This document shows, in pieces, positions 47,213 to 62,047 of a stretch of 64,000 bases of DNA; the stretch's first letter is position 1; every line of letters starts with the position of its first letter. The notes under the pieces were generated by a model, which saw nothing but the letters and a program-made list of their open reading frames with translations, was not told the DNA's origin and did no database searches. The stretch lies in contig NC_013203.1 of NCBI RefSeq assembly GCF_000024225.1, positions 248,001 through 312,000 on the forward strand, written 5' to 3'. The stretch comes from Lancefieldella parvula DSM 20469 (GTDB lineage Bacteria > Actinomycetota > Coriobacteriia > Coriobacteriales > Atopobiaceae). Both the position numbers and the translations under genes were made by a program.

Positions 47213-47273
47213 TTAGTTGAGCGTGTATATATGCGCTGCAGTATAAGGTTAGGTTCGTTTGAAAGGGAAGTTT

Positions 47274-48149
47274 ATGAAGTCCGAAAGCAGTGTGACTCGT
47301 CGTTCGTTTGTTGCCAGTGCAACAGGGGCTGCCGTGTTTGGCCTTTCCGCTTGCAATGGTAATGAAACAAAAAAGGAAGATACGTCTGGAAGCCAGAAAA
47401 AAGCTGATGCTCAAAAACTTATTGTGTTTGCGGCAGCATCTTTGACCGAGAGTTTGACTGAAGCAGGAGAGCTTTTTAAAAATGCCAATCAGGGTGTTGA
47501 TATTAGTTTTAACTTTGATTCTTCAGGTACGCTTAAGACGCAGATTGAAGAAGGATCTGATTGTGACGTTTTTATTTCTGCTGGTCAGAAACAGATGAAT
47601 CAGCTTGATGCAAATGCTAAAAAAGATCACGATAAGGACCTTGACTTTATTGCATCTGATACGCGCTTTGACATCCTTGAGAACAAGGTAACGCTTTGTG
47701 TTCCACAGGATAATCCTAAGGTTGTTAAGAGCTTTGATGATATGGCAACAAAGCTTACTTCGGGTGAAGTTTTGCTTGGTATGGGAAATTCGGATGTTCC
47801 GGTAGGTCAGTACACACAGAAGATTTTGAAATACTACAAGCTTGATGAAGAGAAGCTTGCTAAGGAAGGTCATATTTCATACGGAACTAATGTTAAAGAA
47901 GTAACCACGCAGGTTAAAGAAGCTTCCGTTGATTGCGGTGTTATTTATAAGACCGATGCTACTTCTGCAAAACTTCAGATGGTTGATGAAGCAACCGAGG
48001 AAATGTGTGGACGTGTGGTATATCCTGCTGCGGCAACTAAGAATGCAAAGCAGGCAGACCTTGCAAAGAAATTCCTTGAGTTCTTGAAAACCTCTGATGC
48101 GAGCGCTTGCTTTGAAAAGGTCGGATTTACTCCGCTTTCAAAGGCATAA
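47274..48149 (+). CDS. modA: ModA molybdate-binding lipoprotein
   Basis: The substrate-binding subunit of the molybdate ABC importer, 291 residues. The N-terminus carries a twin-arginine-like stretch (TRRSFVASATGA) and a lipobox LSAC with Cys27 as the lipidation site. The mature part shows LIVFAAASLTESLTEAGELF, the anion-site region SFNFDSSGTLKTQIEEGSDCDVFISAG and VTLCVPQDNPK, as in ModA of the class-I type. It is anchored outside the membrane and delivers molybdate to ModB. The ATG at 47274 has AAAGGGAAG. It begins a likely operon continuing through modBC and the moa genes. Confidence 0.95.
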   Translation: MKSESSVTRRSFVASATGAAVFGLSACNGNETKKEDTSGSQKKADAQKLIVFAAASLTESLTEAGELFKNANQGVDISFNFDSSGTLKTQIEEGSDCDVFISAGQKQMNQLDANAKKDHDKDLDFIASDTRFDILENKVTLCVPQDNPKVVKSFDDMATKLTSGEVLLGMGNSDVPVGQYTQKILKYYKLDEEKLAKEGHISYGTNVKEVTTQVKEASVDCGVIYKTDATSAKLQMVDEATEEMCGRVVYPAAATKNAKQADLAKKFLEFLKTSDASACFEKVGFTPLSKA

Positions 48150-48181
48150 TTTCTCGCTGCTAAATCTGGATTGGTATTTCT

Positions 48182-48871
48182 ATGGATTGGTATCCGCTGT
48201 ATAACTCATTGAGGATTGCTGCGGCATCAACTGCTCTTGTTTTTTTATTGGGTATTGCTTTAGCAAACCTCGTTGCCAAGACTCCACGAATTATTAAGGG
48301 TCTTTTGGATGTCATACTGACGTTACCGTTGGTGTTGCCACCGACGGTTGTGGGCTATCTGCTGTTATTGCTTTTGGGTCCACGTCGTCCCATTGGCTTT
48401 TGGGTTATGGATGTGTTTGGTATAAAACTCACGATGGTATGGTATGCAGCAATTTTTGCAACAGTAGTGGTGAGTTTGCCGTTGATGTATCGCACAACCC
48501 GAGGTGCATTTGAAAGCTTTGATGAAACGCTTGCAGATGCAGCTCGCACGCTAGGCAAATCAAATACATGGGTGTTTTGGCATGTTAAGATGCCTTGCTG
48601 CATGAAAGGCGTGGTAGCAGGAACTGTTTTGGCGTTTGCTCGGGCGCTGGGTGAGTATGGAGCAACTTCAATGATATGCGGATATACTCCAAACACCACA
48701 GCAACCGTATCAACAACAGTCTATCAATTGTGGAGAACTGGCGACGATGCAGCGGCTATACAGTGGGTGCTTATCAACCTTGCCATTTCTGCCGTGGTGC
48801 TTCTTGCTCTTAACATCTTTGAAAAAGGTAGCCGCCGAGCACGTGTGGCAACACCAGTTCAGGAGGCGTAG
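48182..48871 (+). CDS. modB: ModB molybdate ABC permease
   Basis: The membrane subunit of the molybdate importer, 229 residues with five or six helices. The ABC-permease EAA motif appears as DETLADAARTLGKSNTWVFWHVKMPCCM, and LPLVLPPTVVGYLLLLLLG is the typical ModB early segment. GEYGATSMICGYTPN marks the anion-translocation region. It lies 32 bases after modA and 2 bases before modC. It works in the cytoplasmic membrane with ModA and ModC. Confidence 0.95.
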   Translation: MDWYPLYNSLRIAAASTALVFLLGIALANLVAKTPRIIKGLLDVILTLPLVLPPTVVGYLLLLLLGPRRPIGFWVMDVFGIKLTMVWYAAIFATVVVSLPLMYRTTRGAFESFDETLADAARTLGKSNTWVFWHVKMPCCMKGVVAGTVLAFARALGEYGATSMICGYTPNTTATVSTTVYQLWRTGDDAAAIQWVLINLAISAVVLLALNIFEKGSRRARVATPVQEA

Positions 48872-48873
48872 TT

Positions 48874-49977
48874 ATGGCGCTTTCTGTTGATATTGCCAAG
48901 CATTTAGATGGTTTTGATTTACATGTTTCGTTTGTTGTCGAGAAGGGCAATGAGGTATTGGCTCTTCTTGGTCCTTCCGGCTGCGGTAAATCAATGACGC
49001 TCAAGTGTATTGCTGGCATTGTAAAGCCGGATAGCGGGCGCATTGTGCTCAATGATCGAGTTCTGTTTGATTCTGAAGCTCATATTAATTTGCCACCGCA
49101 AGAGCGACACGTAGGGTATTTGTTTCAAAGCTATGCTCTCTTTCCGCATATGAGTGTTATGCAAAACGTACTGGTAGGAGCTAAAGGAGAAACACAAGCA
49201 GAGCGTGAGGCGTGTGCGCTTGAACAGCTTAAGAAGGTACAACTTGATGGTCTTCTTGATCGTCGCCCTCATGAGCTTTCTGGTGGCCAGCAACAGCGCT
49301 GCGCTATGGCTCGTATTCTTGCAAGCAAGCCTGATCTTATTTTGCTTGATGAGCCTTTCTCGGCACTTGATAGTTATCTCCGATGGCAACTTGAACTGGA
49401 GTTAAGCGATACTCTCCGTGCGTTTCCGGGAGGAGCAATTTACGTTTCACATAATCGCGATGAGGTGTATCGTCTGTGTGATTCCGTGTGTGTTATCAAT
49501 CACGGAAACTCTGATGATAAAGTTTCGGTGTATGAGCTTTTCTCGACACCGACTACGCTTGCTGCGGCACGAATTTCAGGATGTAAGAATATTTCTCGTG
49601 CACATAAGGTGGGCGAGAAGAGCTTGTTTTGTGATGAATGGGGCTTAAGTCTTACAACCGCTTTGCCAGTAGATGAACAGGTGAAATACGTAGGAATTCG
49701 TGCACATTATTTTCAGGTAGTGGACTGTGCAAGTGAATACAAAAATATCATTCCTTGTCAGGTGAATCGCGTGATTGATAATACGTTTTCAACTATTGTG
49801 ATGGCTCAAACACCGGGAGGGTCACTGCTTCGTTATGAATGCTCCAAAGAGTCGTGGGCACGTTTAGGTGAGCCTCGCCAGGTTTTGCTTCACGTTGCTC
49901 CAGAATATGTCATGCCACTTTGTGATGGTGAAGAAAAGCACAGCGTAGTGGAAGAAAAGAAGTCACTGTATGTATGA
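48874..49977 (+). CDS. modC: ModC molybdate ABC ATPase
   Basis: The ATPase of the molybdate importer, 367 residues. Walker A is [19 protein letters not shown] (the usual S/T after Lys is Ser), Q-loop [15 protein letters not shown], signature [16 protein letters not shown], Walker [16 protein letters not shown] and H-loop [14 protein letters not shown]-terminal regulatory region (about 225-350) resembles a TOBE/MOP domain. Its 3' end overlaps the moaA start by 8 bases, linking uptake to cofactor synthesis in one transcript. Confidence 0.95.
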
Positions 49978-50917
49978 TGAGTTGGGTCGAAACATTCGCT
50001 ATTTGAGACTTTCAGTAACCGATCGCTGTAATTGTCGTTGTTTGTATTGCATGCCGGCACACGGTATCTCTATGCTTCGACATGAAGATATACTTTCGTT
50101 TGAAGAGATGCGCGCTATTGTTGAAGCATCTGCGCAGTTGGGAGTAAGAAAGGTTCGTCTTACAGGTGGAGAGCCATTAGCACGTCGCGGTATTGTAGAT
50201 CTCGTACGTATGGTTTCTGCTGTTGAAGGTATTGAAGAGGTAGTTATGACTACCAACGCTACGTTACTTGCACCTCTTGCAAAAGATCTCAAAGCAGCAG
50301 GGCTTTCTCGTCTCAATATTTCTCTTGATACACTTGATTCTGAACTGTATACAAAGCTCAGTCGTACGGGAACACTTGATGATGCGCTGGCTGGTATTGA
50401 GGCAGCAAGAGAAGCAGGGTTTATCTATACAAAGTTCAATACCGTACTTTTAGGAGGACTGAATGAATCTGAGATTCGTCCTCTTGCAGAGCGAGCTAAA
50501 AGTGAGCCTGTTGATGTGCGTTTTATTGAGCTGATGCGTATGGGTGAATGCTCAAAATGGCCGGCTGAGCGTTTTATAAGTGCTGATTGCGTATTAAAAG
50601 TATTGCCTGAACTTGAAGCTGCTGGCTCTAATGGCGTAACAGAGCTCTTTCAGGCACCGGGATGGCGGGGACGTGTAGGGCTTATCCGCCCAATGACGCA
50701 TACATTTTGTAGCTCTTGCGACAGAATCCGCGTAACTGCAGATGGTATGTTAAAACCGTGTCTGCATTCTGCACGAGAAATTCCGCTTAGGGGACTTGTG
50801 GGAGATGAACTTGTGCAAGTTTTGCGTCAAGGTATTTCTCAAAAGCCTGAAGGTCATATCATGAGTCTTTCTCATGCAAGCGAGTCGCTTCGAGCGATGA
50901 ATAAAATAGGGGGTTAG
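49970..50917 (+). CDS. moaA: MoaA GTP 3',8-cyclase
   Basis: A radical-SAM enzyme of 315 residues that starts molybdopterin synthesis from GTP together with MoaC. The SAM cluster motif is DRCNCRCLYCMPAHG (Cys at about 19, 23 and 26); the second cluster is in FCSSCDRIRVTADGMLKPCLHS. GGEPLARRGIVDLVR and SLDTLDSELYTKLSR are the SAM-binding parts. The C-terminal Gly-Gly, needed for activity in this family, is present (NKIGG). The start overlaps modC. moaC follows one base after its stop. Confidence 0.97.
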   Translation: MYDELGRNIRYLRLSVTDRCNCRCLYCMPAHGISMLRHEDILSFEEMRAIVEASAQLGVRKVRLTGGEPLARRGIVDLVRMVSAVEGIEEVVMTTNATLLAPLAKDLKAAGLSRLNISLDTLDSELYTKLSRTGTLDDALAGIEAAREAGFIYTKFNTVLLGGLNESEIRPLAERAKSEPVDVRFIELMRMGECSKWPAERFISADCVLKVLPELEAAGSNGVTELFQAPGWRGRVGLIRPMTHTFCSSCDRIRVTADGMLKPCLHSAREIPLRGLVGDELVQVLRQGISQKPEGHIMSLSHASESLRAMNKIGG

Positions 50918-50918
50918 C

Positions 50919-51398
50919 ATGGCGTTTACACATTTTAATTCGCAAGGTCATGCGCATATGGTTGATGTGTCTGCAAAGGAAAAAACAGCACGTACCGCTC
51001 GCGCAAAAGGTAAGATTTTTATGCGCCACGATATGCTTGAGCTTGTTCGTACAGGTGGTATTCAAAAAGGTGATGTACTTTCTGTGGCGCAAGTTGCAGG
51101 CATTATGGCAGCAAAGCGAACTTGGGAAATCATTCCCATGTGTCATCCTATTCAGCTTACCGGAGTAGATATTTCATTTGCATTTGAGGGCGATGGTATT
51201 GCGGTAGAGGCATGTTGTCGATGCACCGGAGAAACTGGGGTAGAGATGGAAGCGCTGACTGCAGCATCTACGGCGTGTTTGACTATCTATGACATGTGTA
51301 AAGCACATCAGAGGGATATGGTTATTGACCAGATTTGCTTGCTTGAGAAAGACGGAGGAGCATCAGGTCATTTTGTGCGAGAGGAACAGAATAAATGA
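50919..51398 (+). CDS. moaC: MoaC cyclic pyranopterin monophosphate synthase
   Basis: A 159-residue enzyme, normal length, that makes cPMP from the MoaA product. Motifs are MVDVSAKEKTARTARAKGKIFM, KRTWEIIPMCHPIQLTGVDISF (active-site His) and GETGVEMEALTAASTACLTIYDMCK. The last codons overlap the next start (ATGA). It is followed directly by the MOSC gene. moaD, moaE and a mobA gene are not in this window, so the rest of the pathway must be elsewhere. Confidence 0.97.
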   Translation: MAFTHFNSQGHAHMVDVSAKEKTARTARAKGKIFMRHDMLELVRTGGIQKGDVLSVAQVAGIMAAKRTWEIIPMCHPIQLTGVDISFAFEGDGIAVEACCRCTGETGVEMEALTAASTACLTIYDMCKAHQRDMVIDQICLLEKDGGASGHFVREEQNK

Positions 51399-51883
51399 GT
51401 GTTGGAGTGACTGAATCTGCTAAAAGAGGCACGGTACTGTCTTGTTGTATTAGCGTGAAAAAGGGCACACGAAAAGTACCTGTTGATTCTATTGAAGTGT
51501 GCGTAGGAGAAGGTATCAAAGGTGATGCCCATGCTGGAAATTGGCATCGTCAGGTGAGCCTTCTTGGTAACGAGTCTGTTGATACTATGCGCGAGAAGGG
51601 CGCAGAGTTACATCCAGGAGATTTTGCAGAAAATATACTAACTTCTGGTCTTGCACTGCGCGAGCTCCCTGTTGGTACGGTACTTGCAATAGGAGATACT
51701 CTTCTTGGGGTAACTCAGATTGGAAAAGTATGTCATCACGATTGTGAAATTCGCAAACTGGTTGGTACTTGCGTAATGCCTACTGATGGTATTTTTACCG
51801 TGGTTTTACGTGGAGGTACTATCAGACCTGGAGATGCCATTTGTGTAGTTGATGCAAAGGAGCTCTTGCATGAAACAGATTAG
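51395..51883 (+). CDS. MOSC-domain protein
   Basis: A 162-residue MOSC domain protein. The domain is found in sulfurases and in molybdenum-cofactor handling proteins and uses a conserved Cys for sulfur transfer. Visible features are VCVGEGIKGDAHAGNWHRQVSLLG, FAENILTSGLALRELPVGTVLAIGD and KVCHHDCEIRKLVGTCVMPTDGIFTVV, with the Cys in VCHHDC likely functional. It stands between moaC and a MoeA-like gene, fitting cofactor sulfur or selenium handling. It overlaps moaC by four bases and the next gene by 14. Confidence 0.92.
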   Translation: MSVGVTESAKRGTVLSCCISVKKGTRKVPVDSIEVCVGEGIKGDAHAGNWHRQVSLLGNESVDTMREKGAELHPGDFAENILTSGLALRELPVGTVLAIGDTLLGVTQIGKVCHHDCEIRKLVGTCVMPTDGIFTVVLRGGTIRPGDAICVVDAKELLHETD

Positions 51884-52904
51884 AACAGAAGATGCAGTAG
51901 GACATGTACTGTGTCACGATATGACTCAGATTATTCCTGGCGAGAGCGCTGACGACAAGACGCGCTTTAAGGGCGTGCGCTTTAAGAAGGGTCACGTAGT
52001 AGAAAAGGCTGATATTCCTGTATTGCTCAGCATGGGTAAAGAGCATCTTTATGTGTGGGAGTTGGGAGACAACCAACTTCATGAAAACGATGCGGCATAT
52101 CGCATGGCAGCGCTTTGCCATGGCGAGAATTGCCTTGTATCCAAAGAGCCTCATGAGGGAAAGCTCACTATCACTGCGGCAGTTGACGGTGTCTTTGAGC
52201 TTGATGTCCAGCGTCTTAATGCAGTGAATGCAGTAGATGAAGTTATGATTGCTACTCGTCGCGGCAATATTGCAGTTAAGAAGGAAACCCCTCTTGCGGG
52301 AACTCGTGTTATTCCTTTGGTAGTAGATACGTCTGTTGTTGAGGCTGCCGAGGCTGCTGCTGATGTTGAGCATAAGGGAGCTCTTATGCGAGTAGTACCG
52401 TTTTGCGTTAAGACTGCGGCGCTTATCGCAACAGGGTCTGAAGTGCAAAAGGGACTTATTGAGGATAAGTTTACACCGGTAGTTGAGAAAAAACTTGCAG
52501 CTTTTGGCATTGAAACAGTGCATTGTGCAAAGCCTGGCGATGATATGGATGCACTTGTTGCTGCTATTCGCAAAGCACAACATTTGGGTGTAGACATGAT
52601 TGTCTGTACAGGTGGAATGAGCGTAGACCCAGATGATAATACCCCAGGTGCTATCAAGCGCTCCGGTGCTCATATTGTTACCTATGGTGCTCCGGTTCTA
52701 CCTGGTGCAATGATGTGTTTAGGATATTTGGATGCAGCCAATAGTTCTACTTCTCAAATTCCTATCTTAGGACTTCCGGGATGTGTCATGTATAGCGCAA
52801 CAACAGTATTTGACTTAGTTCTTCCCCGTATTGCGGCTGGTATTGAACTGACAAAGCATGATTTTGTAGCCCTTGGCGAGGGTGGCCTCATAGTAAAGGA
52901 ATAA
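51870..52904 (+). CDS. MoeA-like molybdopterin-binding protein
   Basis: A 345-residue molybdopterin-binding protein. The N-terminal part (about 1-165, TEDAVGHVLCHDMTQI...KKGHVVEKADIPVLLSMGKEHLYV) resembles the MoeA entry domain; the MPT-binding domain (about 165-310) has ALIATGSEVQKGLIED, MIVCTGGMSVDPDDNTPGAIK and ILGLPGCVMYSATTVFDLVLPR. MoeA inserts molybdenum into MPT-AMP. The protein is shorter than E. coli MoeA (about 410 residues), a form common in Clostridia-like anaerobes. The ATG at 51870 is preferred to an earlier one at 51849 that would overlap the MOSC gene more. Confidence 0.9.
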   Translation: MKQIRTEDAVGHVLCHDMTQIIPGESADDKTRFKGVRFKKGHVVEKADIPVLLSMGKEHLYVWELGDNQLHENDAAYRMAALCHGENCLVSKEPHEGKLTITAAVDGVFELDVQRLNAVNAVDEVMIATRRGNIAVKKETPLAGTRVIPLVVDTSVVEAAEAAADVEHKGALMRVVPFCVKTAALIATGSEVQKGLIEDKFTPVVEKKLAAFGIETVHCAKPGDDMDALVAAIRKAQHLGVDMIVCTGGMSVDPDDNTPGAIKRSGAHIVTYGAPVLPGAMMCLGYLDAANSSTSQIPILGLPGCVMYSATTVFDLVLPRIAAGIELTKHDFVALGEGGLIVKE

Positions 52905-52906
52905 AT

Positions 52907-53416
52907 ATGCCAGAGAGTTCTTGCGATGCCACATCCTTCTCAGCGCGTGTCATTACTGTAAGTGATCGTTCTTCGCGTGGGGAACGACCAGATGCAAGCG
53001 GTCCTGCACTTGTTGCTTTTTTAGGCGAGAAGGGCTTCGCAGTTGATGCATATGCAGAGGTTGTACCTGATGAGCGTCAGCAAATTGCCCGTGCGTTACG
53101 TAATGCAATTTCGGATGACATTGCGCTTGTGGTAACTACGGGTGGGACGGGTTTCTCGCCACGAGATATTACTCCTGAAGTTACATCTGAAGTATGCGAG
53201 CGTATGGTGCCGGGCATTCCTGAGGCTATGCGTGCGGCATCACTACTTATTACACCTAAGGCATGTCTTTCAAGAGAAGTAGCAGGCATTGCCCAGCGTA
53301 CTTTAATTATAAATTTGCCAGGAAGTCCTAAAGCTGCAATAGAAAATCTTGCAGCTGTTTTGGACGTTTTACCTCATGGACTTGGAATTTTAAGAGGTAC
53401 CATACTTGATGGTTAA
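52907..53416 (+). CDS. mogA: MogA/MoaB-family molybdopterin adenylyltransferase
   Basis: A 169-residue enzyme that adenylates molybdopterin before metal insertion. Motifs are ARVITVSDRSSRGERPDASGP, LVVTTGGTGFSPRDITPEV, GIPEAMRAASLLITPKACLSREVAG and LIINLPGSPKAAIENL. It lies 2 bases after the MoeA-like gene and ends the Mo/Se operon with a strong hairpin. The sequence is equally compatible with MoaB naming, since these paralogues differ little. Confidence 0.94.
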   Translation: MPESSCDATSFSARVITVSDRSSRGERPDASGPALVAFLGEKGFAVDAYAEVVPDERQQIARALRNAISDDIALVVTTGGTGFSPRDITPEVTSEVCERMVPGIPEAMRAASLLITPKACLSREVAGIAQRTLIINLPGSPKAAIENLAAVLDVLPHGLGILRGTILDG

Positions 53417-53452
53417 CAAACTCCCCAACAAACAAGTTTGTTGGGGAGTTTG
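53417..53452. terminator. Strong hairpin at the end of the molybdenum operon
   Basis: A perfect 17-base stem, CAAACTCCCCAACAAAC (53417-53433) and its complement (53436-53452), lies between the mogA stop and the converging flavin operon. There is no T-run, but the very stable stem probably stops transcription from both sides. Confidence 0.8.
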
Positions 53453-53484
53453 CATAAGTACTCTTATGTAAAGTTTTCAATAAG

Positions 53485-54696
53485 TTAGGCGCTTGCTCCA
53501 GAGATTGCATCAACGCTTGAGTTTGATCCATCTGCATTACCACTTGGTGCTCCTGTAGGAGGCATAGGCATTCCAGCACCGCCGACAAGACGCTGACCAG
53601 TAGTTTGGAGATACCAATCCAACCATGGCTTAAAGTTGAAGACAATCTCGTTGATGCCTGCATAAGAGCCATCAGGGTAATACATTGCTTGGTAGTTATG
53701 GGTATTGATAATGTCGGCTGGTGTACCTGGGACAATGGTGCGAACATACTCTTTGTCGCCGTTGCGAAGTACGCCAATGACATATTCAACGTTTTTCATA
53801 CGACCTTCAGGAAGAGAGCTGTGAACTGTGGACAGACGGTTGCCTGACTGCTCAGGTACGCGTTTTGCCAGCATGGTATCTGGATTGTCGTGAACGTTGT
53901 TGTAGTAAAGGAATTGGTTGTTGTCATCTGCGTAGGTCAGCTCAAATGGCATTGCTTTTAGGAACATATCAATTTGGTTGACTGTTAAAATGCCATGGTT
54001 AAGTTTTACGTATGTGTCACCTGAAACTGCACCCACAAGCTCAGCGGCCTTCTCGACCCAATCAGGATCATCGGGATCAATGCCTTGGATAGTAGTGGAA
54101 ATTGAGTTGGTCACGTCCAGATCCTCTGGTGCAATTGGCTTTGGCTTCTTCAATTTGGAGACCACCTCTACGTATTTAACAAAGTTATCCAAGCAAAAGC
54201 CCAGGAAACTAACAGTGCGCTCATCGATAATGTTGCCATCTTCATCAAAGGCCTGCTTAGCCTTTCCAAGAAGGAACTCGTTACCAGGTAAGACGAATGC
54301 GTTTACGCCTGGAGCATCCAAAATCTTGCGCAAATGAACTTGTGCGCGAGAAGTTCCTTGGTCGTAGTAAGAAGCTCCGACAATCATGACAGGCTTGTCT
54401 TCAAATGGATGTACATCGTAAGAGAGCCATTCGATAACGCTTTTCAGCGCAGGTGAGATGGTATGGTTGTGCTCCGGTGTAGAAATAATGACGCCGTCAG
54501 CTCGAGTAATCCTGTTGTACAGTAGGCGAAGCTGGAAGTTTTCATCCCACTTAAGGTCCTGGTTGAACAGGGGAATGTTATCAATCTCAAGAATTTCAAG
54601 CTCAAACTGCTTGGCAAAGTGTTTTTTAATGAAGTGTAGAAGTTTTCGGTTATAAGAAATCTCCGCATTTGAACCGACAATTCCGACAAATTTCAT
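53485..54696 (-). CDS. FMN reductase-PAS fusion with C-terminal flavinylation motif
   Basis: A 403-residue protein in three parts. Residues 1-190 are an NADPH-dependent FMN reductase fold (FVGIVGSNAEISYNRKLLHFI, ADGVIISTPEHNHTISPALKS, MIVGASYYDQGTSRAQVHLRK). Residues about 230-370 resemble a DUF438/PAS_10-type PAS domain (LNHGILTVNQIDMFLKAMPFEL, YYPDGSYAGINEIVFNFKPWLDWYL). A flexible Gly/Ser/Pro tail ends DAISGASA, matching the ApbE recognition motif Dxx[S/T]GA[S/T] with Ser402 as the probable FMN attachment. No signal peptide is seen, so it is cytosolic. It is the last gene of an operon with an FMN reductase and apbE, which supports covalent flavin loading. Confidence 0.85.
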   Translation of the reverse strand: MKFVGIVGSNAEISYNRKLLHFIKKHFAKQFELEILEIDNIPLFNQDLKWDENFQLRLLYNRITRADGVIISTPEHNHTISPALKSVIEWLSYDVHPFEDKPVMIVGASYYDQGTSRAQVHLRKILDAPGVNAFVLPGNEFLLGKAKQAFDEDGNIIDERTVSFLGFCLDNFVKYVEVVSKLKKPKPIAPEDLDVTNSISTTIQGIDPDDPDWVEKAAELVGAVSGDTYVKLNHGILTVNQIDMFLKAMPFELTYADDNNQFLYYNNVHDNPDTMLAKRVPEQSGNRLSTVHSSLPEGRMKNVEYVIGVLRNGDKEYVRTIVPGTPADIINTHNYQAMYYPDGSYAGINEIVFNFKPWLDWYLQTTGQRLVGGAGMPMPPTGAPSGNADGSNSSVDAISGASA

Positions 54697-54716
54697 AATA
54701 GTAGTTCCTTCCAGGC

Positions 54717-55325
54717 CTACAGGTTTTCCCAGTCAAAGTTTTCGGCCTCTTTGCGGAGAAGTTCGCGCGATGCGGCCATTTTTTCGTTGAGTTTTACAAA
54801 CAGACGGAAGTCGTCAAATAGCAGATCAAGCTTCTTGACGGTAGCCTTGTCCTTCAAGTTGCCCTTCTCGTCAAATGCTTGCTGAGCGCGACCAAGAAGG
54901 AATTCGGAACCTGGCATGATTGCTGCTTTGAGTTCTGGAGCGTCCAGGATTTGGCGGAGCTGCAGCTGCGCGCGAGAAGATCCGAGTGTGCCTAAGGATG
55001 CGCCAACAATCATGACTGGCTTGTTGACCATAGGGAAGATGCCATAGGACAGCCAAGCAAGTGCGTTTTGCAGTACAGCTGGAATGGAGTGGTCGTACTC
55101 TGGGGTTGCGATAATGACGCCGTCAGCAGCTTCAATTTTCTTTGCAAGCTCAGAGACAACTTTGGGAACCCTCATTTTTGCAGGCTTGTTGAACAGGGGA
55201 ATGTTGTCGATTTCCACCAGCTCGATGGTGGCCTTGTCGGCAAAATGCTTTTGCATAAATTGTAAAAGCCTTCGGTTATTTGATTCTTTTGAATTGGTGC
55301 CAATAAGGCCAACAAAGTTAAGCAT
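54717..55325 (-). CDS. NADPH-dependent FMN reductase
   Basis: A 202-residue flavoprotein of the FMN_red family. It shows FVGLIGTNSKESNNRRLLQFM (FMN phosphate loop), IPLFNKPAK, ADGVIIATPEYDHSIPAVLQNALAWLSYG and KPVMIVGASLGTLGSSRAQLQLRQI, and is close in sequence to the N-terminal domain of the fusion protein encoded downstream, so the two are paralogues from a duplication. It lacks the PAS part and the flavinylation tail. ATG 55325 is preferred to a TTG one codon earlier. It probably passes electrons from NAD(P)H to flavin within the same system. Confidence 0.92.
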   Translation of the reverse strand: MLNFVGLIGTNSKESNNRRLLQFMQKHFADKATIELVEIDNIPLFNKPAKMRVPKVVSELAKKIEAADGVIIATPEYDHSIPAVLQNALAWLSYGIFPMVNKPVMIVGASLGTLGSSRAQLQLRQILDAPELKAAIMPGSEFLLGRAQQAFDEKGNLKDKATVKKLDLLFDDFRLFVKLNEKMAASRELLRKEAENFDWENL

Positions 55326-55342
55326 CAAAATTCCTTTCTGGG

Positions 55343-56305
55343 TTACGCAAGGAGCTCAGGTGAGATTCCCGACGAATAATATACGCGATTATCATTAGTT
55401 ACGATAAGTGCATCGATGTCCTTTTCTTGTTCTACGCGGGCAAGAAGTTGATTGGGTTTCTCGCCATAAAGGCGCGTTGTCCAAATTTCTCCGTCAAGCG
55501 AGTTGTCCGAGATAATCGTGATGCTTGCAAGTTGCGTGTCAACTGGATAGCCGGTATCTCGGTCAAGAATGTGGTGGTAAGACTGTCCGCTTACCTGAAG
55601 TTTCCTTTCGTAGGTACCGGAGGTCACTACGGACTGGTTGCGAATAGGCAGCACAGCAAGGTTGGTGCCTCTTGGTTGTTGCGGATCCTGGATACCAATC
55701 TGCCACGGTCTGCCTGCAAGTAAATTGGTACCAATTGTTTTAATGTTACCGCCAAGGTTAATAAGCGCGGAAGTGACGTGTTGACTTTTCAGATAATCTG
55801 CAATTTTGTCGGCAATGTAACCTTTTGCCAGACATCCCAAGTCTAGCTTCATGCCTTCTTTGGCAAGAAATACAGTGTAATTCAGCGGATCTAATTCAAT
55901 GAGTTGTGGGTCAGTTAACGCTAACGCATGCGCAATCTCGGTTTTGTTTGGAATGCGAGCGTCAGTAAAGCCGATTCGCCAGGCTTGAACCAAAGGGCCA
56001 ATGGCAATATTTAAATGACTTGCAGGTAGGAGACTTTGTTCTTTTCCAATTTGAATAAGTTCAAACAACTCGGGGTGAACTGGAATAGAATGTTTGCCCG
56101 CTGCATGGTTGACCTGCATGAGCTCGGAATTTGCGTCGTTTGCGCTAAATCGCTGGTTATAAATGTGCAGGAGGTCAAAGACGCCATTAAGCAACTGCTC
56201 TGCCGAGCATTCCATCTGCATATCATTTTGAGGTGATAATAAAGAGATGGTGATAGTTGCACCCATCAGGTGAGTTGATCTGGAAACGTAGGCTAGTTCT
56301 GACAC
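55343..56305 (-). CDS. apbE: ApbE FAD:protein FMN transferase
   Basis: ApbE moves FMN from FAD to a Ser/Thr of partner proteins. The 320 residues from a GTG at 56305 (GGGAGAG just upstream) begin ELAYVSRSTHLMGATITISL; the frame is open further up to 56416, but that extension lacks a good site. Motifs are RFSANDANSELMQVN, LDLGCLAKGYIADKIADYL, SALINLGGNIKTIG, SVVTSGTYERKL, YHHILDRDTGYPVDTQLASITII and the metal-binding NSLDGEIWTT. No lipobox or signal peptide is present, so it acts in the cytosol, as do ApbEs that modify cytosolic reductases. Its likely substrate is the fusion protein two genes downstream. Confidence 0.9.
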   Translation of the reverse strand: MSELAYVSRSTHLMGATITISLLSPQNDMQMECSAEQLLNGVFDLLHIYNQRFSANDANSELMQVNHAAGKHSIPVHPELFELIQIGKEQSLLPASHLNIAIGPLVQAWRIGFTDARIPNKTEIAHALALTDPQLIELDPLNYTVFLAKEGMKLDLGCLAKGYIADKIADYLKSQHVTSALINLGGNIKTIGTNLLAGRPWQIGIQDPQQPRGTNLAVLPIRNQSVVTSGTYERKLQVSGQSYHHILDRDTGYPVDTQLASITIISDNSLDGEIWTTRLYGEKPNQLLARVEQEKDIDALIVTNDNRVYYSSGISPELLA

Positions 56306-56593
56306 GACTCTCCCATATTGTCCAACAGTGGTTTGTCTAATCTTACCTGTAGATTGCTTGGTAAGTAGCATAATTTTATGCTTGTTCGTTGCATTTGTTT
56401 GTTGTATCAACAACATTTTTGGTGAGAAAATCTATAGTCCTTTAGGTTCAAGTGCCGTTGTAAAGGCGGCTGTATATCCATTGATGCGGAAAATTTATTT
56501 TGGTGTCCGTAAAATAATTGTCCAGTAACACGATATAATTTTATGAAGTTCCTAGTTATTTCCTGTACTGCAAAAAGTGGAGGTAAAAGGCAT

Positions 56594-57370
56594 ATGAGAA
56601 GCATCTTTGAAGATCGACAAGTATCAATTAAGTGTGACAACAAGTATTCTTATACCGTTACAAAAGACGGCTTGGCTTATGTCCCAGGTAATGGTAAGCC
56701 AGAGGTTAGAATCTTGTTTTCTGAAGTCGGTTCAACTTTTTTGCTGAACTATTGCAGCTCTAACGGTCCTTACGAGATTACCTTTAAGAGCAATGATGGT
56801 CATGACATTGCTAGCATCGATACAGATCTTAAGCTCCGCGAATTTGGACATAATATCCTGGATACCAAGACTATTATTCTTGCTTTTGCGGCTCATAAGC
56901 TTACTAACGAGTTTCCCAATAACCTTGAGATATTGAACACCACGCTCGGATTCAGCTTCAAAGAGAAAAAGATTACTATCTCAAATGGTGTGATTTCCGG
57001 CGCAAAGCATCAGGTTAAGCTTTCTGACATTCGCCGAGTTCAGTGTGTTGCAGGAGGCGCACTCAATAACCTCTTTGTTTTCACTAAGGAGAAGGGTGGC
57101 TTCTTTGATAGGGCAGACATTGTTGTTCCCGTCAACGAGCTTACAGTTCCTATTCTTGAAGCTACAATGAGAAGAAATACTGGTCACGGTATTGATTTCA
57201 GTAGAGGCAATGGATTTGATCAGCCAAACAGCAACTTCATCATTATTCGTTATTTGGACTCTAGCTTCTTTGAGACTGCCCCTGGCGTCTTCAAGGAGGA
57301 CTGGCAGAAGGATGCCTACGAGTTCGTTAAGTCCTTTGGTTATGATTTGCAGACCATGCTAGGGGAGTAA
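56594..57370 (+). CDS. Conserved-looking hypothetical protein
   Basis: I do not recognise this 258-residue protein. It has no signal peptide or membrane helix and reads as a mixed beta/alpha soluble protein. Two halves each look beta-rich: residues 1-95 (SIFEDRQVSIKCDNKYSYTV...) and 110-200 (FSFKEKKITISNGVISGAKHQVKLSDIRRVQ), then a helical end (WQKDAYEFVKSFGYDLQTML). A PH-like fold is conceivable from ITISNGVI...LSDIRRV, but this is weak. The ATG at 56594 has GGAGGT upstream; the longer frame from 56543 is less likely. It stands alone between the apbE operon and the surface-protein gene. Confidence 0.65.
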   Translation: MRSIFEDRQVSIKCDNKYSYTVTKDGLAYVPGNGKPEVRILFSEVGSTFLLNYCSSNGPYEITFKSNDGHDIASIDTDLKLREFGHNILDTKTIILAFAAHKLTNEFPNNLEILNTTLGFSFKEKKITISNGVISGAKHQVKLSDIRRVQCVAGGALNNLFVFTKEKGGFFDRADIVVPVNELTVPILEATMRRNTGHGIDFSRGNGFDQPNSNFIIIRYLDSSFFETAPGVFKEDWQKDAYEFVKSFGYDLQTMLGE

Positions 57371-57470: not shown

Positions 57471-60400
57471 TTACTTATTTTTACGACGCTTAGTAATGCC
57501 AAGTGAAGTCATTACAGTTGTCATACCTGCGAGAAGTACACCAAGAGGTGCTGCAACAGAAGCGTCTCCTGTATATGGAGTCTTCTTTTTCTTAGATGGC
57601 TTCTTCTTAGTTGGAGTGGAAGGAGAAGGTGTCTCTGGGGTCTTATCCTCTGCAACAGTAATAGTTAACTGGATGGTGTCGTTATTAGTTGCAACAGCGT
57701 CTTTACCATCTGGCCATTGAACACCATTCCAAGTGAACGAGAAGGCTTTGCGGTTGCCGGCTGCGGAATCAGCAATAGCGCTAAAGGAGCCTGTAACTGT
57801 ACCAACAGCGGTGAGCTGAGTACCTGCAGCAACATTGGAGTCAATGGTGACACCAGGAATGGTGAGCTTCATCCAACCACCGTTTGCACTGGCTTCGTCG
57901 ACAATACGTTCAAGGTCAGAGTACGTTCTAATGGAAGATGGATCGCTGAGCTCAAACGTGACAGTAACGGTACGGCCGTTAACCTGGACATCGCTGACCT
58001 TAAAGCCACTACCAAAGTTAGAAGCCTGGACAGTGCTGGCATCAAGGTTGCTTGGGAGTGTCATTCCTTCAGGAACGGTCAGAGTTGCTGTGAACTTGAA
58101 CTTAAGATTGCTCAGCGTAATGGTGTCGTGGTTGGTATTAGGATAGGCACGCTCGATGTTGTTCATCTGCTCTTGGATAGAGGAAGCAAGAATTGAACCA
58201 GTGAGATTAAAGGTAGAGCCTGCCTTCATGGTGATGACCTGGTCATGCTCGGTATTCTCGTCTGCGAGCATATCTGCAGGGATGTTCATATCAATAGGGT
58301 TGTTAACAATCAGAGTCTGCTGAATATCTGTACCACGAGGATCTCTGTTTGCAGTAATCTGAACACCGTTCCAAGAAAGGTTGTACTTCTTGGTAACGTT
58401 AGTGACGGTATTCTTTGCATAAGACTCAAAAGTACCAGTAAGAGTACCTGTAGCGGTAAGCTCCTGACCATTGGTAACCTGAGTTGAGTCAAGGGTGAGG
58501 CCGTTAACGGTTACGGTAAGGGGTCTTGCGATCTCTGCGGTAGCTGCGTCGTCTTTGCCGACTGTTTCAACAGCATCTTTGAGCTGCTTATAGTTGCTGT
58601 AAGTATTCTTAAGCTTCAGGGTAACGGTAACTTCTTGGCCGTTAACGGAGACATTTGAAACATCAAAGAGGTCACCAAGACCAGAGGTGGTTACTGTTGG
58701 ATTAGCTGGGACAACAACGCCAGCAGGAAGAGTAAGTTTTGCAGTAAAGGTAGAAGTTGTGCCTGAAAGCGTAATCTTGGTTAGGTCGTCAAGGCCACCA
58801 GCGATGTTATTCTCAAAGTTAGTCATTTGGTTAATGACGGAAGTAGCATCAATGGCGCCCGTAAGACTGAAGCTCTTATCGTTAGAAACTTCTTTAATCT
58901 GAGTGGTGTTGTTCTGAGAATCGCTCCACATATCAGCAGGAAGATCACTGGTAAGCTCAACTTTCTGGATGGAAGGATCATCTTTCCACTTGAGGTAGTA
59001 AGTGACGTCGTTAGTAAGCGTTGCACCACCGTTGATAGTTGCAGGGGAGTTGCCTGCAGCGTCAGTAAACCAGTAGTGATAGTCGTGGCCAACAACAAAA
59101 CCAAAGAAGGTCTTTGGTTTATCCTCGCTGTCTAGGATATGGTTTTCAAGAGTTGCAATATTTGTGTATGCAGTATTGGTGTTAGAGTCGGTTGGACTTG
59201 CAATTCCAGCAGTTGTAGCGCTTAGGGTATTGCCACTGAGGTTTCTAAGCAGTGCGTTGATGTTAGTCTGCTCAGCAACGGTTGGATGAGTTTTGATAGT
59301 AGCAACCTCTCCACCGTTTGCATCGGTAGTGATGTCAAAGACGTTTGGGTTCTGCTTAAATACGCTATTTGCAGAGAAGGTTCCACCATTTGCCGAGAAG
59401 GACACGGTAAGGCGCTGCTCCTCCCAGTCTGCATACAAATCAATGGTATCGGTACCAGTAGGAATAGCTAGGTTGGAGTTAGCTGCAACCTCATCGCCAG
59501 CGCCGTTTGCCTGGGTAGTCCAGCGCTTGAAGGTCTTACCAGCAATATTGAAGTTATTGTTGAGGTTGTTGACCTCAGTATTAGAGCGAACTGTTACGGT
59601 ACGGTTTGCGTTAGTAGCAACGCGGTCAATGACAGAGACGCCGTTACCATTGTGATACCTGACGTAGAGCCAAGAGGTGTTAGCTTTCCAGTGTGGATAG
59701 ACTGTCATGTCAGAGGTGACCTGAGTATCAGCGGTAAATTGATGTTCTGTGCCAGAAGCGTCAGTGTAGTACCAGCCGTCAAACTCCTGGCCGCTTGCAT
59801 AGGGGTCTGCAGGCAGGGTAGTGGAGCCTTCTGCTACAGAAGAAGCGGTTGCAAGAGAGTTGCCACGCATGGCAAGAGCTGTTTTGTTAGCGGTAGTGCC
59901 ATCAGCAAATGTTGGATTAATGCCCGTAACGCCTGGGGCGTTAAGATCAAAGGTGACAGTTGCAGCAGGTGCCCAGACGTGCTTCTGACCATCACTTGAT
60001 GCGTTAGCAACTGGGTAGGTGTATGTTGCACCATTAGCATTAATGAGGCTTAGAGAGTTAGTTGATACGTCAGCAAGTGTAAAAAGCGAGAGTGCTTCGT
60101 TTCCGTTAGCTGCACCGTTTGTAGGAATAGTGCTACCAAAGCCGCTGTTGTAGTCAGGTGCATATTTGAGCAGATACGAACCGCCAACAACATTGTAATT
60201 TTGACGAGTCTGGCCAGCACCGTTATCAGAGTTCTTGGTCGCAGGGGTCTCTACTAGGCTGTTTCCAGTGAACTGGATGGAGCCATTAGTCTGTGCACCA
60301 AAGAGAGCGCCAGAATTACGACCATCTCCTTTAATGGTTGAGTTGTTAATGATGACATTACCAGTGTTGACGTTCAGACCACCAGTTCCACCATTGGTAA

Positions 60401-61523
60401 AGTTAAGGGTTGAGTTAGTAACGTTTACAGTTCCTCCAGCTACACCAACAGAAATGCCAGAAGTAGAACCAGCATTTGCATTGATGGTGGAGTTAACAAT
60501 ATTGGAAGGACCCTGGATGGTCATACCCGTCTGTCCCCAGTAAGATGGGTTAATGGTCAGGGTAGAATCAGTCATGTTGAGCTGGTTGACATAGAAAGTC
60601 TGACCAAAGCCCTTAACCTTAAGATCAGTGTTCTTGAGGGTAAGATTACGAGCATCATTCCAGGTACGTGCCTGTGAAGTGACGTTGATAGTAGCGTTTT
60701 CAAAAGTAGAGCCGGACTCAAAGAAGTTTGTATTGCTCTTATCGTCTGCAGTGATGCTAACGCTGTTTTTGTTGGTAGTGCCTTTAACGGTTCCGCCAAG
60801 AGAAATACCGCGAGAGCCACTAGAACCTGCGTTGTTTTTAAAGACGTAGGTACCGTCGGTGATAGTTGAACCAGGCTGTGCAGTTAGGGCAGTTTTGAAG
60901 CCAGACATAGTAAGGGTACCAGTGCCGGTTAGCGTTGAACCAGACTTCAGAACAAGACCATCAATTCTGTTACCAGTGCCAGTAAGAGTTGCACCTTCAT
61001 CAGCAATTTTGAGTGTGAGACCAGCAGGAATAGTAACCGTAGAGGTCAAATCAAGATTGCCTTTAAGATGAATGGTATTGATGGATGGAGTTTCTGAACA
61101 TAGCTCCAGTGCTTTCTGTAGAGTTTTGAGAGCATTTGTATTAGAGCCATCATTGGCGTCGTTACCATTGGTTCCGTCTACCCAGAGCTCAGTTGAGGTA
61201 ACTGAAAGGCTTCTTGCAACACGGCGAGAAGATCTATCTGTAGGAGTAGTAGTCTGCTCGGAAGTTTGCTGGTTAGTGGAAGTCTGCTGGTTAGTAGTAG
61301 CTTCGGTGTTAACGGTAGATTCAGCTGTTGTTTCTGCTGTTGCTTCAGAAGTTGAAGCTGTTGTATCACTTGTTTGGGTTGCCGCAACTTCTTGCGCTTG
61401 AGTTGTTTCTTGAGTGTTAGCAATTTCTGCTAATGCTGAAGAAGGAACTAAAGAGAGTGCGAGTACCAAAGACATAGCTGTCTTAGCACCTTTACCTGCA
61501 AAGTTCTTATTTTTTCTTTCCAT
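57471..61523 (-). CDS. Large cell-wall-anchored surface protein
   Basis: A secreted protein of 1350 residues. The signal peptide (KNKNFAGKGAKTAMSLVLALSLVPSSALA, cut near residue 34) is followed by a Thr/Ser/Gln-rich stretch (35-105), a right-handed beta-helix region resembling pectate-lyase-like adhesins (about 115-500), InlB B-repeat/Listeria-Bacteroides-type modules (FDGWYYTDASGTEHQF, TFKRWTTQANG, about 520-870) and two tandem related modules of about 210 residues (from PADMWSD and PADMLAD, each ending near WNGVQ). The end has a Lys-rich spacer, TPYTGD, a membrane helix and RRKNK. TPYTG is a variant sortase motif. Likely role: adhesion. ATG 61523 is preferred; a TTG at 61538 is possible. 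Confidence 0.9.
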   Translation of the reverse strand: MERKNKNFAGKGAKTAMSLVLALSLVPSSALAEIANTQETTQAQEVAATQTSDTTASTSEATAETTAESTVNTEATTNQQTSTNQQTSEQTTTPTDRSSRRVARSLSVTSTELWVDGTNGNDANDGSNTNALKTLQKALELCSETPSINTIHLKGNLDLTSTVTIPAGLTLKIADEGATLTGTGNRIDGLVLKSGSTLTGTGTLTMSGFKTALTAQPGSTITDGTYVFKNNAGSSGSRGISLGGTVKGTTNKNSVSITADDKSNTNFFESGSTFENATINVTSQARTWNDARNLTLKNTDLKVKGFGQTFYVNQLNMTDSTLTINPSYWGQTGMTIQGPSNIVNSTINANAGSTSGISVGVAGGTVNVTNSTLNFTNGGTGGLNVNTGNVIINNSTIKGDGRNSGALFGAQTNGSIQFTGNSLVETPATKNSDNGAGQTRQNYNVVGGSYLLKYAPDYNSGFGSTIPTNGAANGNEALSLFTLADVSTNSLSLINANGATYTYPVANASSDGQKHVWAPAATVTFDLNAPGVTGINPTFADGTTANKTALAMRGNSLATASSVAEGSTTLPADPYASGQEFDGWYYTDASGTEHQFTADTQVTSDMTVYPHWKANTSWLYVRYHNGNGVSVIDRVATNANRTVTVRSNTEVNNLNNNFNIAGKTFKRWTTQANGAGDEVAANSNLAIPTGTDTIDLYADWEEQRLTVSFSANGGTFSANSVFKQNPNVFDITTDANGGEVATIKTHPTVAEQTNINALLRNLSGNTLSATTAGIASPTDSNTNTAYTNIATLENHILDSEDKPKTFFGFVVGHDYHYWFTDAAGNSPATINGGATLTNDVTYYLKWKDDPSIQKVELTSDLPADMWSDSQNNTTQIKEVSNDKSFSLTGAIDATSVINQMTNFENNIAGGLDDLTKITLSGTTSTFTAKLTLPAGVVVPANPTVTTSGLGDLFDVSNVSVNGQEVTVTLKLKNTYSNYKQLKDAVETVGKDDAATAEIARPLTVTVNGLTLDSTQVTNGQELTATGTLTGTFESYAKNTVTNVTKKYNLSWNGVQITANRDPRGTDIQQTLIVNNPIDMNIPADMLADENTEHDQVITMKAGSTFNLTGSILASSIQEQMNNIERAYPNTNHDTITLSNLKFKFTATLTVPEGMTLPSNLDASTVQASNFGSGFKVSDVQVNGRTVTVTFELSDPSSIRTYSDLERIVDEASANGGWMKLTIPGVTIDSNVAAGTQLTAVGTVTGSFSAIADSAAGNRKAFSFTWNGVQWPDGKDAVATNNDTIQLTITVAEDKTPETPSPSTPTKKKPSKKKKTPYTGDASVAAPLGVLLAGMTTVMTSLGITKRRKNK

Positions 61524-62047
61524 ATCTGCCCCAAACAAATAGTAAATACCCCAACAAAATTTGCAATCAAATTTTGTGCTGTATGTGACGAACTACGATA
61601 AGCACAAAAGAAATACGTGGCACAAATTTAGAGCATTTTTTGTATAGATGATTATCTATCATTTTTGATAAAGATTGTTGTCTCAAGCAGGCATTTTTAT
61701 AGTTTGTACATATTTTAAAAGTCACTTTTAACTCGTGTTATATAAGTAATTTAATCAAAATATTTAGCGCGTTTAAGAATGACACTTAAATTGCGCTATT
61801 TTTGACAATTTTTTGGTATTTGTCATAAACGTGTAACGAATAGAAATTTCAAAAGAAATGTATTAAATCTTTAAGACAAATACGAGTCATGTGGAAATCG
61901 GATAGTTAACAAGTTCATGAAATTCAATTTTTAAATTTTGTTTGTAATACAAGCTTTGTACACTAAGTAAAAGTAAGTTAAGAAAAAGACTACTTTGCGC
62001 GTGGATAAAGCGTAGAAGACGTTTTTAATGTATTAAGCGGGGAAGCT
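61524..62047. other. A/T-rich divergent intergenic region
   Basis: About 520 very A/T-rich bases separate the surface-protein gene (-) and the HD-domain gene (+). An inverted repeat, CAAAATTT-GCAATC-AAATTTTG (61555-61576), lies in the surface-protein leader, about 30 bases before its start, and could be an operator or leader hairpin. I see no RNA gene or supported ORF, and no promoter that can be assigned with confidence. Confidence 0.45.

Follow-up and report, generated by a model that had tools for sequence, protein, structure and literature searches.

Does a flavin reductase that ends in an ApbE target motif carry a covalently bound FMN and, if so, what would this flavin do at the end of a tail? 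The question is raised by a locus of Lancefieldella parvula DSM 20469 contained in the stretch of 64,000 nucleotides that was analysed here (the window). The initial annotation described this locus as a two-protein system, formed by ApbE and a fusion of an FMN reductase with a PAS domain. Both proteins are present; however, a second FMN_red subunit encoded at 54717-55325 had been overlooked, and the operon consists of three genes, all on the minus strand, with the following features:

55343-56305, minus strand: apbE, a signal-less FAD:protein FMN transferase of 320 residues (GTG start; Pfam ApbE, E 6e-76)
54717-55325, minus strand: FRedA-like FMN_red subunit without a tail, about 202 residues (Pfam FMN_red, E 1e-35; Thr and Asp at the FRedA pocket positions)
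53485-54696, minus strand: FRedB-like FMN_red-PAS_10-tail fusion, 403 residues (Pfam; 126 fusion loci compared)
54256-54696, minus strand: FMN_red domain, fusion residues 1-147 (Pfam, E 2e-34)
53632-53973, minus strand: PAS_10 domain, fusion residues 242-355 (Pfam, E 8e-20; profile match to PDB 2qkp, E 2e-18)
53491-53511, minus strand: ApbE target motif DAISGAS, residues 396-402, with Ser402 as the predicted FMN site (sequence, consensus and conservation)

The tail-less FMN_red gene is placed between apbE and the fusion, with gaps of about 20 bp on either side; its ATG start was adopted, an in-frame TTG being also present at 55328. The apbE gene was read from a GTG preceded by GGGAG, which agrees with the coordinate of the initial annotation. 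A longer frame begins with an ATG at 56416, and its N-terminal stretch is unmatched by homologues, for which the matches begin near residue 45. In the fusion, the FMN_red domain is followed by a linker, the PAS_10 domain, and a tail rich in Gly, Ala, Ser and Pro that ends in DAISGASA. The translation places Asp396 and Ser402 where they had been annotated, and the joining of the reductase and PAS domains as well as the presence of apbE in the same operon were also borne out. A scan of positions 53300-56700 for promoters and terminators returned fewer sites than shuffled sequences did. The genome, a single contig of 1,543,805 bases, contains four FMN_red matches and a single ApbE, which is that of the operon. 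Convergent with the operon, on the plus strand (window 47259-53416), there is a cluster that by recognition we take to be devoted to molybdate transport and molybdopterin synthesis. A predicted surface protein of 1355 residues with a TPYTG-like C-terminal end is encoded at window 57471-61538 (minus strand); elsewhere in this genome (L105:2219-3907, minus strand), a protein of 562 residues shows a flavodoxin-like reductase N-terminus and a hydrophobic, membrane-like C-terminal part.

The consensus of ApbE targets is D-x-x-[S/T]-G-A-[S/T] (PMC12052999, in excerpt), and the DAISGAS of the window fusion fits it exactly. The same tail, which it had been proposed to look for in homologues, was found: at least one ApbE-type motif is present in 124 of 126 fusion loci, which represent 120 distinct proteins and are not independent, given that many are close Streptococcus relatives. 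The strict form occurs in 111 of the 126, only a form with Ser for Gly in 13, and neither form in two (L070 and L251). The number of strict motifs per fusion chain spans from 0 to 6. A single motif is not typical, two being the commonest count (69 of the 120 distinct fusions); one motif, as in the window fusion, is seen in 18, and the strict motif is absent from 15. These counts exclude nine of the 79 loci of one set (L067, L068, L071-L073, L077-L080), where the fusion frame is broken, truncated, masked or absent, as well as L171, which has no FMN_red. Tail length and composition vary among the homologues and the motif is kept. When stand-alone PAS proteins are included, 127 distinct tails contain 275 motifs (with Gly or Ser) against 2.1 expected from shuffling each tail, and 121 of these tails have at least one motif, again against 2.1 expected; in 109 of the 121 the last motif ends three residues or fewer from the C-terminus. 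When only the tail of the window fusion was shuffled, a motif with G or S as its fifth residue arose in 0.6% of the cases, and at the very C-terminus in 0.07%. As a control, the last 80 residues of the FRedA-type proteins were inspected, and a motif appeared in one of 124 distinct sequences, namely a PAS-less, tail-bearing protein from Lactococcus. A chance occurrence of the motif is ruled out by the shuffle counts and by its conservation across the fusion loci. These data point to Ser402 as the predicted site of a covalently bound FMN.

If ApbE is to modify this residue, both proteins should be found in the same compartment. Neither has an evident signal in its sequence or in a simple hydropathy scan, as the initial annotation had stated, and the N-terminus of ApbE is not hydrophobic (over residues 1-45 of the ATG version, the 13-residue hydropathy peaks at 0.24). 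An extracytosolic flavinylated electron-transfer system was considered and discarded, since neither ApbE nor its target has a signal peptide or a lipobox. Pfam detected no FMN_bind domain (PF04205) in the fusion, and a search of the genome for other known classes of ApbE target, which covered FMN_bind and NqrB/RnfD, found neither.

The link between ApbE and the fusion extends to other genomes. At 82 of the 126 fusion loci the fetched stretch includes apbE, and the usual gene order is apbE, FRedA-type gene, fusion; the number of 82 is a lower bound because many fetched stretches reach only 1.5 kb past the match. Homologues beside apbE that lack the motif had been named as the case that would speak against flavinylation. 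One of the 82 loci is such a case (L070, with DAGAGAS) and 12 more have only the form with Ser for Gly. The window fusion combines an FMN_red domain, a motif-bearing C-terminal extension and an apbE neighbour, the features of the class reported by Huang 2024, i.e., FMN_red proteins with one to two C-terminal motifs near apbE, mainly from Firmicutes (PMC11334425, in excerpt). ApbE was found in all 31 genomes tested, and in 29 of them an ApbE start without an evident signal peptide could be read. Among 395 genomes from the order to which the Streptococcus locus L003 belongs, ApbE is present in 353 and the PAS-tail query has a match in 214, which is strong (E <= 1e-20) in 195. None of these 195 is among the 41 identified (of 42) genomes that lack ApbE; the probability of a random draw giving zero overlap is about 4e-14, a significance inflated by shared ancestry. 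One ApbE-less genome (G362) has a weak PAS-tail match. From the ApbEs located beside a strong fusion match, 3 of 95 pass a crude hydropathy threshold and 1 of 95 has a lipobox-like match; for 32 other ApbEs the same tests gave 14 and 9, respectively. In some Streptococcus relatives (L276, L277, L279 and L281) the ApbE frame itself apparently has a motif at its end (DLVSGAS or DLASGAS), which would suit a self-flavinylating enzyme.

The overlooked subunit gives a clue about the type of enzyme encoded in this operon. In Lactobacillus johnsonii, FRedA and FRedB form an obligate heterodimer with two FMN sites that is an H2O2-forming NADH oxidase (Valladares 2015, PMC4500961). Its partner LjPAS is a separate PAS protein that slows the assembly of FRedA/B, and homologues of LjPAS are fused to the reductase in L. 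plantarum (Lp2732) and E. faecalis (EF1227). The two subunits differ in the pocket residues, which are Thr9 and Asp75 in FRedA, and Ser9 and Gln75 in FRedB (PMC4500961). Counting only proteins with a recognisable pocket pattern, the family of the tail-less gene is A-like, with Thr in 76 of 81 relatives and Asp in 78 of 81. In the fusion family, 102 of 118 proteins share the Ser of FRedB, and at the second position 111 of 118 have Asn instead of Gln. A FRedA-type neighbour is present at 125 of the 126 fusion loci, and the PAS_10 partner that accompanies these enzymes is represented by the fused PAS_10 domain (Pfam; 2qkp profile match). Because the pocket residues are A-like in one protein and mostly B-like in the other, the simplest reading of the operon is an enzyme made of FRedA and FRedB-PAS that is accompanied by a dedicated ApbE, an identity that is well supported.

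Structural modelling was less informative. For the full fusion, modelled with 30 close relatives, AlphaFold2 gave a mean pLDDT of 59 that left the PAS domain and the tail unresolved, and the PAS region alone gave again a pLDDT of 59, too low to place a ligand or the tail. Using this low-confidence model, Foldseek retrieved 2qkp (E 1.2e-9), followed by generic PAS and LOV domains; at the level of a model, the PAS fold of the PAS_10 region is recovered.

Motif-bearing tails also occur on other proteins. A set of ten PAS_10 proteins that stand alone, with about 196-247 residues, resemble LjPAS in size and domain and presumably correspond to it. One to three motifs are present in nine of them, and a signal-less ApbE is encoded in all ten genomes; in the tenth gene (L255 and L288, genome G241), the tail is gone, apparently by a frame shift. 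The proteins of L167, L168 and L169, with 882-894 residues, contain one FMN_red and three PAS_10 domains (Pfam on L168 and L169), and 8-9 relaxed motifs in the linkers and tail. A predicted lipoprotein (L238:6148-7350, minus strand) contains FMN_bind, a DADSGAS motif, PAS_10 and a terminal DADSSAS, and is apparently an extracellular relative of the PAS-tail module. Since stand-alone, three-PAS and lipoprotein forms of PAS_10 all have motif tails, the tail is tied to PAS_10 as much as to FMN_red. Lactococcus counts against this tie, given that its FMN_red tails occur without PAS, beside stand-alone PAS proteins that have no tail. Among 18 Lactococcus genomes, PAS-less FMN_red tails were found beside apbE and, in five genomes, PAS-type fusions (one of them incomplete); the FMN_red proteins of 198 residues from this genus have a single motif directly after the domain. 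Tail-less stand-alone PAS_10 genes adjoining apbE and a tail-bearing FMN_red gene were located at L232:1426-1914 and L233:1453-1929, and a further locus (L237:1050-4120, minus strand) has a FRedA-like gene next to one for a protein of 815 residues with the order FMN_red, FMN_bind (DAISGAS) and FAD_binding_2.

With these elements, a mechanism can be proposed to which we grant an even chance of being correct. The signal-less ApbE of the operon would attach FMN to Ser402, and the FRedA-like subunit together with the FRedB-like fusion would form a cytosolic heterodimer. NADH would reduce the FMN sites at the heterodimer interface, from which electrons would pass to the FMN on the flexible tail. 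This flavin would act as a tethered replacement for free FMN, at a high local concentration as compared with the Km of 20 uM that FRedA/B shows for FMN (PMC4500961), and would deliver the electrons either to O2, with formation of H2O2, or to an acceptor that the PAS domain holds or senses. In favour of this mechanism are the conservation of the motif, the FRedA-type neighbours, the co-occurrence with ApbE and the pocket residues, as well as reports that FMN_red tails adjoining apbE are flavinylated at Ser or Thr (PMC11334425, in excerpt) and that a terminal flavinylation motif serves as a tag (PMC10722498, in excerpt). Against it are the single motif of the window fusion when most relatives have two or three, the distinct fusions without a strict motif, the Asn found where FRedB has Gln, the arrangement in Lactococcus, the activity of FRedA/B in vitro without any tail (PMC4500961), and the AlphaFold2 models, which provided no structure of the tail or of a contact between PAS and tail. 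The observation of a motif tail with apbE in the operon is confirmed, and the interpretation given to it in the initial annotation is partly supported, electron shuttling by the tail being possible.

The main rival to an electron relay proposes that the covalent FMN is an anchored cofactor only, i.e., that the tail folds back into the FMN_red site and prevents the loss of flavin; with two motifs the site of the partner would also be filled, and PAS would have a structural or regulatory role. Huang 2024 interprets FMN_red and Flavodoxin_4 in this way (PMC11334425, in excerpt), and the proposal agrees with a Kd for FMN of only about 2 uM at two sites per FRedA/B heterodimer (PMC4500961), two being the commonest motif number, and with the position of the motif in the short Lactococcus proteins. 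Nevertheless, we consider it somewhat improbable in view of the variable number of strict motifs per chain, the location of the PAS domain between the reductase and the tail, and the motif tails of PAS_10 proteins without FMN_red, which fit a role beyond anchoring the cofactor of a reductase. It is unlikely that the tail FMN passes electrons to a separate reductase protein, in a transfer like the one that FMN_bind may carry out inside HcrB-like chains; the 815-residue Lactococcus protein paired with a FRedA-like subunit has such an HcrA/HcrB-like layout (PMC10295242, in excerpt), but a non-systematic view of the neighbours revealed no conserved extra gene at the loci. It is more unlikely still that PAS regulates subunit assembly, as proposed for LjPAS, with the tail flavin incidental or absent: pre-incubation of LjPAS with FRedB halved the initial rate and the LjPAS transcript responds to aeration (PMC4500961), yet the conserved motifs and the link to ApbE are left unexplained, and the LjPAS assayed was probably flavin-free because it was made in E. 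coli without its cognate ApbE.

The relay from FRedA/FRedB to the tail FMN can be extended into a wider proposal, which we put forward only tentatively. PAS_10 with a flavinylation tail would constitute a family of tethered flavin carriers, in which a fusion chain has as many as six strict motifs and a three-PAS protein eight to nine if relaxed ones are counted; such carriers would exist as part of FRedB fusions, as separate proteins and, in one case, within a predicted lipoprotein. The FRedA/B enzymes of lactic acid bacteria would be their dedicated NADH reductases, H2O2 would be an aerobic by-product, and LjPAS would be an electron acceptor that passed for a regulator, the protein under study having lacked its flavin.

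The distribution of the fusion suggests how it came to L. parvula. It is present in two of 396 genomes of the class, the window genome and one congener, and 31 other matches in these genomes are short and 24-35% identical; among 140 genomes of the family, a full-length match occurs only in the same two. The nearest named relative is the fusion of L. rimae, 83% identical. In a tree obtained by a quick search with SH-aLRT support only, from which near-identical rows were removed (120 to 85 plus window), the window and L. rimae are paired (99) and fall within a supported group of 24 rows (96), the rest of which belong to Bacillota; their placement as sister to Granulicatella elegans has weak support (81). 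The operon is also found on plasmids of Lactococcus lactis, one typed as conjugative and one as mobilizable, near a regulator of the Crp/Fnr family, and full-length fusion matches occur on plasmids of Enterococcus faecium. Base composition was uninformative on transfer, with a GC content of 45.8% for the operon against a mean of 43.4% (sd 2.8), and 101 of 123 equal windows lower. From its distribution and the tree, the simplest reading is that the operon is probably a Lactobacillales gene set transferred into Lancefieldella.

The architecture had been considered unusual; however, fusions of FRed with PAS were noted in 2015 (PMC4500961, which is also our source for the NFR described by Hertzberger et al. 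in 2014), FMN_red tails flavinylated by ApbE were described in 2024 (PMC11334425, in excerpt), and both the enzyme type and the flavinylated tails are already published, separately. As in this operon, in L. johnsonii two neighbouring FMN_red subunits have a PAS_10 partner, although PAS is there encoded by a separate gene; the words ApbE, covalent and flavinyl are absent from the text of PMC4500961, and the tail is unmentioned. The FMN_red proteins of Lactococcus lactis and L. taiwanensis have likewise a motif-bearing C-terminal extension near apbE, and Ser/Thr-dependent covalent FMN was shown on two Lactococcus proteins, WP_021723379.1 and WP_205872264.1; in contrast with the window operon, a PAS or FRedA partner is not mentioned for them in the excerpts of Huang 2024 (PMC11334425). 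The hydroxycinnamate reductase HcrA/HcrB from L. plantarum also pairs a small FMN_red-type partner with a larger subunit that uses FMN and NADH, but this larger partner is a substrate reductase and the excerpts of PMC10295242 mention no PAS-tail. The cytosolic ApbE of Klebsiella pneumoniae is similarly signal-less and modifies a cytosolic redox enzyme, which, unlike the window fusion, is a fumarate reductase (PMC12052999, in excerpt). In open-licence PubMed Central papers, without supplements, no paper was found that joins FRedA/B-PAS with flavinylation by ApbE, and the PAS-linked, usually tandem flavinylation tails of FRedB and LjPAS-type proteins seem to be undescribed.

In L. johnsonii, production of H2O2 is reportedly lost when the genes for FRedA/B are deleted, and this H2O2 is reported to reach host cells (PMC4500961, in excerpt). 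Should the PAS partners prove to be flavoproteins loaded by ApbE, both the published kinetics, measured with free FMN, and the inhibition ascribed to LjPAS would have to be examined again using modified protein, and the question of the physiological acceptor would become a defined one. If this is true, the cytosolic chemistry of ApbE would extend to a redox operon widespread among lactic acid bacteria, as indicated by the strong PAS-tail match in 195 of 395 genomes of the order.
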